Source: a virus
IMG/VR virus record: IMGVR_UViG_3300030331_005561
Location: 1-37,592 of that record
DNA length: 37,592 bases
Direction: 5' to 3' (one strand)
Under the pieces are notes generated by a model that saw only the letters and a program-made list of their open reading frames with translations, was not told the origin of the DNA and did no database searches. Shown here in pieces: positions 27,475 to 33,419 of the stretch. Made by a program: the position numbers and the translations under genes. Positions within the stretch are counted from its first letter, which is position 1. Every line of letters begins with the position of its first letter.

Positions 27475-27744
27475 TTAATCGTCGTATACTCTACATTCCA
27501 ATGAATCTGGATGATTATCACAATACACTTCTAAGTGCTGATCCTCATGTCGTGTGTGCCAATCATTGATCTTTGCATCATTCTTATCCACTTCATCCTC
27601 GGAGTGGGAATGAAAGGCATCATTGTGCATCTTTAGATCTTCTTCAGTATATTCGATCATACCATGATTGATATGCTCTTTATGATCTTTAGGATCTATA
27701 TAAACCTCATGATTAAGGTCGTGTTCTGGAGTGTTAGATGTCAT
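27475..27744 (-). CDS. Small acidic His-rich protein (89 residues)
   Basis: The protein has 12 histidines and about 25 acidic residues in 89, with motifs such as DPKDHKEHINH and WHTRHEDQHLEVYCDNH and two cysteines near the C-terminus. It has no membrane or signal segment. The composition suggests metal binding, but there is no fixed ligand pattern that I recognise. It lies between gp27 and the gp5-like gene, 6 nt before the latter, and starts 22 nt after a NATAAATA box, so it is probably a late gene. A small hub-assembly factor or metal-bearing virion protein are both possible. The interest is that the neighbouring gp5-like protein has a copper-protein-like domain. Confidence 0.7.
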   Translation of the reverse strand: MTSNTPEHDLNHEVYIDPKDHKEHINHGMIEYTEEDLKMHNDAFHSHSEDEVDKNDAKINDWHTRHEDQHLEVYCDNHPDSLECRVYDD

Positions 27745-30793: not shown

Positions 30794-32512
30794 TTATACT
30801 CCTACCAAATCATGAATACCCAAAGAGCGAGTGGTCATTTCTCTATAAGTAGATCTATTTACAATCATGATATCAGGAATAGTCTTACTTCCAATCTTAG
30901 TAGGAGTTTGATCTTGTTTACTTATTCTCTTCTCTGGTAATACAATTGTCTTATCCGATGTATGACTTACAGGAACTTCAATAGCAACTAATCCCACAGC
31001 CTTAGCAGGGAAAAATCCACTTTCCCCTCCATATGTACTAATTGACTTAGATGGATCATTTATATTTTTTACCATATCTTTCAAATTTCCAACTAAACCA
31101 CCACCTTCAAACTTTTGCACCGTATTTTTAATTAAACCGCCTTTATTAAACTTCATGATGTTATTAACACTAGCAGATGAGTTCATTCTCTTATTAAACT
31201 TCATGGTGTTATTAACACTAGCAGATGAGTTCATTCTCTTATTAAACTTCATGGTGTTATTAACCTTAGCAGATGCGTTTATTCCCTCAAAAATATTAGT
31301 ACCATATCGTTTGACTGCATCCTTGGTTATTACAAACTCACCAGGAGTTAGCATCGCAGGAACTGTATCTCTATTACTTTCACCAAAAACACTTGGACTG
31401 ACGAATCCACCTTTATTCATTGTTACAACTCCCTCACCCGTCTCATCACTATCATCTTGTCTCTGATTATTAACCCGACCTCCTAATTTATTGATCTGGT
31501 TTTGTAATTCGAGCAACTCATCATTTAACTTTGCTTTTTCAAAAGGATTGTTAGATTGTTGAAATTTAATTAATTTGTCGGTATATTCTTCAGATAGTAA
31601 CTGGCGAGTTGCCTCTACTCCTTTCTCACTTATACTTTTTTCAATATTCATCTGAGTCGGTGTTTTTCCTAAATTAGGGAAAACTTTAGTCAACCAAGCT
31701 GGGGCAGTAAAAAGAGCAACTCCTGCCAACCACGGATTTCTTGCTATGAGACCTACCAAAGCAGGAAGAGACCATGCTAAAAATCCAATCAATGCTCCAA
31801 GTATAGTTCCTAAAGGAGTTAAAAATGCAGCTGCAGCAAATGCCAGTGCAGGCCACCAATCACTAAAAAATCTAGTAAGAGTATCAATTTTCTTTTTATT
31901 TTCTGGATCAGTAAACCACTTAAACAGAACATTAAAAAGATAACCTGCAAGAACAAATTTAAAAAATCTACCTATTGCGTCTAAAATATTAGCAAAAGGA
32001 GAAACTATTTTACCCACTAAATTCTTTCCAACTTTAGCAATACCCTTTGTACTTTCTAATAAATTCTCTCGGACTTTTCTACTGCTTTTTTCTCTTTCTT
32101 TCTTGTCTATATCTGCTTCTTTTCTATTTTGCTTGTTACCTATTCTTAAGATCCCTATAATACTGTCCAATATAGAATTAATTTTTCCATCCATACCACC
32201 CTTCTTCTCATCATCAGCACTACCAGGCAATAATGCTTGAGGTTTAATTTTATTGGTGGGTATTACTTGTTTTCTCGCAAATAATTTATTAACATTTATT
32301 TTTCTTCTTTTTTCTCTGAGTCCCTTGAGTTCATCTCTTAATATTCTTGACCTTGGACTGTCTCCCTGATTGGCAATCTCAAGAGTATTAATACCCTCGA
32401 TCAACGCAGACATATATGTTTTCTCTGCATTATCAACAGCATAAACATCTACTGGTTCTATTCCAAGATCCAATAGAATTTTTGAAATTTCTGGTCTAGC
32501 TGTTACTGCCAT
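30794..32512 (-). CDS. Tail tape measure protein (gp29-equivalent)
   Basis: At 572 residues it is close to T4 gp29 (590). It has an N-terminal helical region with many charged residues (1-165) and a run of hydrophobic segments at about 175-275 (FKFVLAGYLFNVLFKWF, ALAFAAAAFLTPLGTILGAL, AWSLPALVGLIARNPW). It then has a coiled section at 290-345 and the glycine-rich tape measure signature MNKGGFVSPSVFGESN with RDTVPAMLTPGEFVITKDAV at about 365-400. Three tandem 16-residue repeats lie at about 412-457. Tape measure proteins set tail length and leave the tube with DNA, the hydrophobic part entering the host membrane. Its ATG overlaps the stop of the gp26 frameshift extension (TTAATG), the classic order chaperone then tape measure. 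Confidence 0.8.
   Translation of the reverse strand: MAVTARPEISKILLDLGIEPVDVYAVDNAEKTYMSALIEGINTLEIANQGDSPRSRILRDELKGLREKRRKINVNKLFARKQVIPTNKIKPQALLPGSADDEKKGGMDGKINSILDSIIGILRIGNKQNRKEADIDKKEREKSSRKVRENLLESTKGIAKVGKNLVGKIVSPFANILDAIGRFFKFVLAGYLFNVLFKWFTDPENKKKIDTLTRFFSDWWPALAFAAAAFLTPLGTILGALIGFLAWSLPALVGLIARNPWLAGVALFTAPAWLTKVFPNLGKTPTQMNIEKSISEKGVEATRQLLSEEYTDKLIKFQQSNNPFEKAKLNDELLELQNQINKLGGRVNNQRQDDSDETGEGVVTMNKGGFVSPSVFGESNRDTVPAMLTPGEFVITKDAVKRYGTNIFEGINASAKVNNTMKFNKRMNSSASVNNTMKFNKRMNSSASVNNIMKFNKGGLIKNTVQKFEGGGLVGNLKDMVKNINDPSKSISTYGGESGFFPAKAVGLVAIEVPVSHTSDKTIVLPEKRISKQDQTPTKIGSKTIPDIMIVNRSTYREMTTRSLGIHDLVGV
31143..31286 (-). repeat. Three tandem 48-bp repeats in the tape measure gene
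   Basis: Units begin at 31143, 31191 and 31239 and are 48 bp each. Copies one and two differ by one base by eye; the third has a few more changes. They encode three copies of a 16-residue unit near SASVNNTMKFNKRMNS. The phase is preserved (48 is a multiple of 3), so copy-number change would keep the gene intact. Confidence 0.9.
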
Positions 32513-32685
32513 TAAGATGATGCTTGCTTTTGTTGTTGCTTCAATTTCTCTTCTTCAAGATGTGCTCGAAGTAGTTCAACATAAATGTCTCTCTCCCAAG
32601 GGATTAAGTTTTCTATCTCAGTTAATGAATATTTATGATACTGAATTAAAGAAAAATTCAATTTATAATAATTCTCTAGATCCAT
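32512..32685 (-). CDS. -1-frame extension of gp26 (GT-like tail assembly chaperone part)
   Basis: As a stand-alone ORF this would be 57 residues from ATG 32685, with no ribosome site before that ATG. The frame is open further back and joins gp26 by a -1 shift at T TTT TTC (32709-32703). After the shift the reading is CGG TTA GCT CTA GTC CAT and then this ATG, with no stop. The fusion would be 302 residues, spanning 33419-32512. The peptide is helical and charged: MDLENYYKLNFSLIQYHKYS, then IENLIPWERDIYVELLRAHL and a Glu/Lys/Gln tail. Its stop overlaps the tape measure start. Length, position and charge match the T part of tail assembly chaperones such as lambda gpGT. Free translation by re-initiation is the alternative. 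Confidence 0.78.
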   Translation of the reverse strand: MDLENYYKLNFSLIQYHKYSLTEIENLIPWERDIYVELLRAHLEEEKLKQQQKQASS

Positions 32686-32724
32686 ATGGACTAGAGCTAA
32701 CCGAAAAAACTGGATAATCCCTCC
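32674..32724 (-). promoter_or_regulatory. Programmed -1 ribosomal frameshift signal at the end of gp26
   Basis: In mRNA order: GGAGGG (32724-32719), a 9-nt gap, slippery T TTT TTC in the gp26 frame (32709-32703), a 6-nt spacer that includes the gp26 stop UAG (32699-32697), then a hairpin at 32696-32674. The hairpin has CUCUAGUCC pairing with GGA(U)CUAGAG: 9 base pairs, one bulged U and an AUAU loop. An upstream Shine-Dalgarno element, the heptamer and a downstream hairpin at these spacings are the three known stimulators of bacterial -1 frameshifting (as in dnaX). Confidence 0.8.
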
Positions 32725-33419
32725 AATAATACAGTATTTTCTACTTTAGTATTAGGATTAGTGAATTTTACTTCATGAGAAAGTTTGGGCATTGTTTCAA
32801 AGAATGTTTCAATCTGTTTAAATTGAAAGGAATTCATTGAATCAAGAAAATCTCTTATTTCTTTTTTAGTGCAATCAGCTCCAACCCATACTTCTTCTTG
32901 CGAATAAATTTTATCAATGCAAGTTGCAATCAAATCAAAGGACTGATCCACCACTTTACCACCATCATTAAAATCAAAATTATTTTTAATAAACTCTGAA
33001 AGAGAAGGATACTTCATCTCCATCATCAAATCATTATCTAACTTAACTTTATTGGTATGATTATCATTCTTTTGAATTTGAATTTCATCAATCGGTATAT
33101 TTACAGAGACTTGAGTTTTTCCATCATCAGGACAAGTAATCTTAACTTCAATTTCCTCACCCACAGACTTCCCTCTAATATTAAGGAATAGATACTCAAT
33201 ATCAAAAGTAGGAAGAGTGTCAACTTTTATGCCCTTCGTTTGAATGCAAGATTTTATGACATTCTTGATAGCCGTCGTTATTTCTTTTGTATTTTCACTT
33301 TCTAAAGCTAGAACTAATAATTTCTCTTCTTTAACCAGAAAAGGTCTATATTCTATACTTTGTCCAGTGGAGGGTAATTCCAACTCATAAGTCGGTGTAG
33401 CAATCTTTGGTAAAGGCAT
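32697..33419 (-). CDS. 26: Baseplate hub assembly protein gp26 (T4_baseplate family)
   Basis: The 240 residues fit the T4_baseplate family (about 208-247 residues). Features are an N-terminal IATPTYELELPSTGQSIEYR, FLVKEEKLLVLALES, a helical AIKNVIKSCIQTKGIKVDTL with PTFDIEYLFLNIRGKSVGEE, a beta sub-domain with EIEVKITCPDDGKTQVSVNI, and a helical C-terminal half. In T4, gp26 is needed for hub assembly. Here it lies just before the tape measure gene, where other phages encode tail assembly chaperone G. A frameshift signal near its last codons would join it to a 63-residue extension. AGGA lies about 6 nt before ATG 33419. I see no clear late box in the 40-nt gap upstream. Confidence 0.82.
   Translation of the reverse strand: MPLPKIATPTYELELPSTGQSIEYRPFLVKEEKLLVLALESENTKEITTAIKNVIKSCIQTKGIKVDTLPTFDIEYLFLNIRGKSVGEEIEVKITCPDDGKTQVSVNIPIDEIQIQKNDNHTNKVKLDNDLMMEMKYPSLSEFIKNNFDFNDGGKVVDQSFDLIATCIDKIYSQEEVWVGADCTKKEIRDFLDSMNSFQFKQIETFFETMPKLSHEVKFTNPNTKVENTVLLEGLSSFFG

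Follow-up and report, generated by a model that had tools for sequence, protein, structure and literature searches.

A -1 frameshift that makes two tail chaperones is standard in long-tailed phages. The tail assembly chaperone (TAC) genes of T4-type phages were identified by Vladimirov, Gautam and Davidson (2022; Virology 566:9-15, 10.1016/j.virol.2021.11.003), a study to which we refer here through the passages that cite it in two later papers (PMC10885494; PMC12846349). According to these passages, some T4-like phages possess one short and one fused long gene and do not use frameshifting (PRFect paper; PMC10885494), and poly-T slippery signals occur in the TAC-N genes of T4-like phages (PMC12846349). 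A preliminary description of the locus analysed here had taken a frameshift to be undescribed for the T4 gp26 family; this claim of a first description fails because the TAC class, and probably also the poly-T site in relatives, was already known from the work cited in these passages. What may be less known is how tightly U UUU UUY is conserved across T4-type phages and that it is lost where gp51 is a separate gene. Our comparisons suggest that a -1 frameshift in gene 26 very probably yields both TAC-N and TAC-NC, which is by far the best explanation of the locus.

Organisation of the locus

The window, that is, the whole stretch of 37,592 nucleotides that was analysed, carries the following features around the end of gene 26, all of them on the minus strand:

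32697..33419 (-): gp26 gene, candidate TAC-N; the 0-frame product has 240 aa and ends ...EGLSSFFG
32719..32724 (-): GGAGGG, Shine-Dalgarno-like, 9 nt 5' of the slippery heptamer
32703..32709 (-): slippery heptamer T TTT TTC, in the phase X XXY YYZ
32697..32699 (-): TAG, the 0-frame stop of gp26
32674..32696 (-): predicted stimulatory hairpin, 9 pairs and one bulged base
32512..32703 (-): -1 frame extension, candidate C-terminal domain of TAC-NC, starting RLALVHMDLENYY..., with phrog_634 and phrog_150 matches
32512..32685 (-): 57-codon ORF, usually annotated as a separate gene 51 and read here as part of the fusion
30794..32512 (-): next gene, probable tape measure protein of 572 aa, from its position and weak C-terminal PHROG matches

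Gene 26 ends in the codons AGT TTT TTC GGT TAG, with the heptamer one codon before the stop, in the phase needed for tandem -1 slippage, and separated from the predicted hairpin by a spacer of six bases (GGTTAG). The -1 frame is open from 5' of the heptamer, through the 57-codon ORF, up to a TAA that shares one base with the ATG of the following gene, and a -1 slip is predicted to give a fusion of 302 residues. A Shine-Dalgarno sequence was not found before the ATG of the 57-codon ORF. In all of this the preliminary description was accurate: the heptamer, GGAGGG, spacer and -1 frame lie where it had placed them, the small ORF lacks a ribosome site and its stop overlaps the next ATG as it had noted, and translation agrees with the length it gave for the fusion.

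The gp26 product matches PF12322 (T4_baseplate, the gp26/gp51 family) with an E-value of 4e-76 and 255.9 bits, against a curated cut-off of 24.5 bits, and phrog_150 with an E-value of 6e-81. For the small ORF, the matches are phrog_634 (gp51, 'baseplate hub assembly catalyst'; E 3e-26) and also positions 241-279 of phrog_150, which form the last part of the gp26 profile. From this second match it follows that in part of the gp26 family a single protein includes the small-ORF domain as well. The preliminary description had a tape measure gene follow directly. The position and size of the 572-aa gene favour this, as do weak matches to tape-measure PHROGs that are confined to its C-terminal part (best E 1.6e-4), whereas a Pfam match was not found, and the gene is therefore called a probable tape measure gene here. 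A CP12-domain gene also lies among the tail genes (window 27475..27744, minus strand; PF02672, E 1.2e-8); CP12 is a regulator of the Calvin cycle and typical of cyanophages.

Conservation of the slippery heptamer

Relatives were collected with gp26 queries, both by scans of IMG/VR (with the window, S-H34 and phiN3 proteins) and among isolate phages, and because they were found by gp26 queries only, the sample was not selected on the slip site. The comparison across gp26 loci that had been proposed in the preliminary description finds T TTT TTY in phase before the gp26 stop in 174 of the 177 loci with a readable stop, the last base being C in 158/174 and T in 16/174, and a -1 frame that is open in all relatives compared. 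The distance of the heptamer from the 0-frame stop varies (-7 to -31). Heptamer-bearing loci, among which there are 140 distinct sequences, include Kyanoviridae and Sinorhizobium phage phiN3, and the heptamer is also present in Stenotrophomonas phage Mendera, Aeromonas phage ZPAH1 and the Vibrio phages EniLVp02 and D525. Neither heptamer loss with both frames intact nor a conserved ribosome site belonging to the small ORF, the two sequence-level findings that had been set against a frameshift beforehand, was encountered in the T4-type relatives.

The codon before Phe-Phe specifies any of seven residues (S, D, N, A, G, T, H), yet it always ends in T. Under synonymous recoding the heptamer would be expected at a rate of 0.39 per locus (39%), compared with 140/140 distinct loci observed, in a set of loci that are akin, so that the occurrences of the heptamer are not independent events. 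Other Phe-Phe pairs in the same gp26 genes are coded by the heptamer in 2/148 cases only, and this within-gene contrast with the slip site is clear. Judged by these counts, retention of the heptamer is far beyond chance.

Counting against the frameshift reading, three distant relatives (the Ackermannviridae VAP7 and Kevin, and Vibrio phage K369) have the -1 ORF but lack TTTTTTY. In each of them gp26 is present once, the -1 ORF is open, and GTTTTTC, GTTTTC or CTTTTC stands in place of the heptamer (gp26 ends at L179 3118, L180 3127 and L084 3591, respectively).

Predicted stimulatory elements

The hairpin of the window folds with a z of -3.4 compared to synonymous recodings, and in 50 close relatives the folding energy of the mRNA at +6 nt after the heptamer, where the structure signal is strongest, has a mean z of -2.4 on the same comparison. 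Ten control windows upstream lie at about 0 (-0.6 to +0.2), and z is +0.2 to +0.4 at +45 to +75 downstream. The nine-pair hairpin of the preliminary description is thus present, with one bulge, and belongs to a structure signal that is general, but its exact 9-bp stem is common to near relatives only, the others folding differently, and a significant fold is absent from 35% of the close loci and from 67% of the divergent ones. A single conserved hairpin is not supported, as the energy is low downstream of the heptamer in most close relatives while the positions of the stem differ. Close relatives also have a second low-energy stretch inside the small ORF, about 90-126 nt past the heptamer (mean z -1.55), which corresponds to about 32577-32613 (-) in the window.

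Upstream, the Glu codon that lies about ten bases 5' of the heptamer is GAG in 96/118 counted loci, and GAG makes up 1218/3478 (35%) of all Glu codons in the gp26 genes; the upstream GAG gives GAGG(G). The general score for matches to a Shine-Dalgarno sequence is slightly above expectation (at least five matching bases in 54 loci vs 43 expected), and among the upstream Shine-Dalgarno-like signals it is the GAG codon bias alone that is clear. In dnaX, frameshifting has a Shine-Dalgarno-like stimulator, and by analogy GAGG(G) would fit an element of this kind.

A conserved run of six or seven T could also make RNA polymerase slip, giving the same fusion protein through transcriptional slippage. 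We consider this extremely unlikely, as the T run has precisely the X XXY YYZ phase and mostly ends in C, as the RNA structure downstream and the GAG bias upstream fit slippage of the ribosome instead, and as T runs this short seldom cause polymerase slippage.

Coding status of the small ORF

The region of the small ORF matched 523 phage records. In P-SSM2, phiN3, S-H34 and others the annotation treats it as a gene in its own right, gp51 ('baseplate hub assembly catalyst'), whose translation would start at an ATG of its own or come from reinitiation once gp26 has ended; for some distant relatives the annotation lets the small ORF start at the gp26 stop, where reinitiation would be possible. 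Against a separate gene, the first 15 codons of the -1 frame are without ATG in 41/140 distinct loci and without ATG, GTG or TTG in 18/140. P-SSM2 (L081), although annotated in this way, lacks an ATG where the start would lie by homology, which makes annotated gp51 starts doubtful, at least in this phage. Where codons within the 18 bases from the heptamer to the usual ATG differ by a single base, the amino acid stays the same in 57% of cases when the -1 frame is read, compared with 33% for the 0 frame and 2% for the +1 frame, and since synonymous differences are commonest in the -1 frame, this stretch evolves as a -1-frame protein; the encoded peptide is mostly R[LIV][AGS][LM].H. The codons 5' of the ATG are hence conserved in the -1 frame, and a separate gene would give no reason for keeping the heptamer together with a T-ending preceding codon. 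We therefore regard a separate gp51 gene as very unlikely. The -1 extension is a conserved domain for which an own start codon is not needed in relatives. An independent start of the small ORF was discarded in view of the missing start codons and of the -1-frame coding 5' of the ATG.

Proposed mechanism and function

Under the frameshift reading, gene 26 of this T4-type marine cyanophage would be a tail assembly chaperone gene. Most ribosomes would stop at the TAG and produce the 240-residue short form (TAC-N, gpG-like), and a minority would move back by one base on U UUU UUC, aided by the GAG-G element upstream and the folded mRNA downstream, to produce the 302-residue long form (TAC-NC, gpGT-like) with the domain that is annotated 'gp51'. 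If lambda is a guide, the two forms would coat the tape measure protein and deliver it to the tail tube protein as the tail is assembled. Comparison of sequences provides the heptamer, the -1 coding at the junction, the many relatives without a usable start and the homology to T4 gp26 and gp51, and we infer that the slip occurs, how efficient it is and that the proteins act as chaperones in cyanophages.

The gp26 protein is annotated 'baseplate hub', and earlier genetic work had assigned gp26 to the hub of T4 (PMC3004832), so it might instead be a structural part of the hub, with the frameshift serving a role other than that of a gpG/gpGT-type chaperone. This we think unlikely. The same review lists T4 gp26 and gp51 as hub assembly chaperones (PMC3004832), the place before a probable tape measure gene and the short/long architecture match those of TACs, and TAC genes of T4-type phages have been assigned in published work, as cited in PMC12846349 and PMC10885494. 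Structure prediction points in the same direction: when the AF2 model of gp26 (pLDDT 87) was compared by Foldseek with 350,542 PDB chains, the two top probabilities among the matches listed were those of 3fgx (0.66) and HK97 gp13 (2ob9; 0.51), with E-values that are not significant (1.9 and 1.1, respectively). Both are phage tail assembly chaperones (PMC9603447), and these ranks, while not significant alone, are suggestive of a TAC-like fold for the gp26 model. A fold search with a model of T4-type gp51, whose C-terminal domain is of low confidence, did not find a TAC match.

Comparison with T4 and other chaperone systems

T4 gene 26 (208 aa) and gene 51 (249 aa) both belong to PF12322 and phrog_150, the same families as the window gene. 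A profile derived from the predicted fusions of the frameshifting loci aligns collinearly with T4-type gp51 across the junction and on into the C-terminal domain, whereas against the same profile T4 gp26 comes to its end no more than a few residues from the slip site. T4 gp26 corresponds to the short form, and T4 gp51 to the short form plus the C-terminal domain that is coded by the -1 frame in the window. T4 differs in having two separate genes, on opposite strands and without the heptamer, where the window has one gene and a predicted frameshift. T4-type gp26 genes mostly keep Phe-Phe, coded TTC TTT and not as the heptamer, and T4 gp26 itself keeps Phe-Phe without the heptamer. T4 therefore uses the paralogues 26 (short) and 51 (long) and not a frameshift, and gp51 is the T4 counterpart of the long form. 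The preliminary description had proposed gp26 as the equivalent of gpG, and the comparisons give this strong support for the short form, with the qualification that in T4 the long form is gp51 and is made without a frameshift.

Two PF12322 genes are present in T4 and one in each of eleven other phage records; the arrangement of 26 plus 51 was not seen in the 37.6-kb window, a genome fragment with one PF12322 copy, and a second copy in this phage could lie outside it. In a tree that is unrooted and has long branches, T4-type gp26 and gp51 cluster together, with every single-copy gene outside the cluster (95/86 support), a grouping that fits a gene duplication in the T4 lineage. It is possible, though we put it forward tentatively, that the single frameshifting gene is the older state in T4-type phages and that the T4 lineage duplicated it, gp26 then losing the C-terminal part and the slippery codons and gp51 becoming fused in frame. 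In one IMG/VR record (L206, 3001-3746), the T4-type gp51 matches in one frame up to about residue 115 and in another beyond it, possibly through a sequencing error or a broken gene.

Frameshifting and gene duplication would offer a natural contrast, as two ways to the same pair of proteins, and if the cyanophage heptamer, its stimulators and its loss by duplication are absent from the 2022 paper, this would be a clear case of recoding swapped for duplication. The cyanophage 'gp51, baseplate hub assembly catalyst' would be the end of a frameshift product and not an independent gene, which would correct many annotations, and gp26 and gp51, known in T4 as hub assembly proteins, would be tied to the general tail assembly chaperone system.

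Lambda G/GT, HK97 gp13 and other TAC genes in which a -1 frameshift ahead of the tape measure is conserved have the order that is predicted for the window: a short form, a frameshift near its stop, a long form and then a (probable) tape measure gene, and the HK97 gp13 fold is among the best matches to the window gp26 model, with an E-value that is not significant. Lambda differs in its slippery heptamer, which is G GGA AAG, compared with U UUU UUY here. The solved TACs differ in that sequence similarity to the window gp26 is not detectable, and a sequence search of the PDB did not find a TAC. The TAC locus of the Vandenendeviridae and Andersonviridae is alike in its -1 frameshift and always-open -1 frame, and differs in belonging to other phage families and in having an invariant GTTTTT, compared with T TTT TTY in the T4-type relatives (PMC12846349); the Ackermannviridae phage VAP7 resembles the GTTTTT motif of these families.
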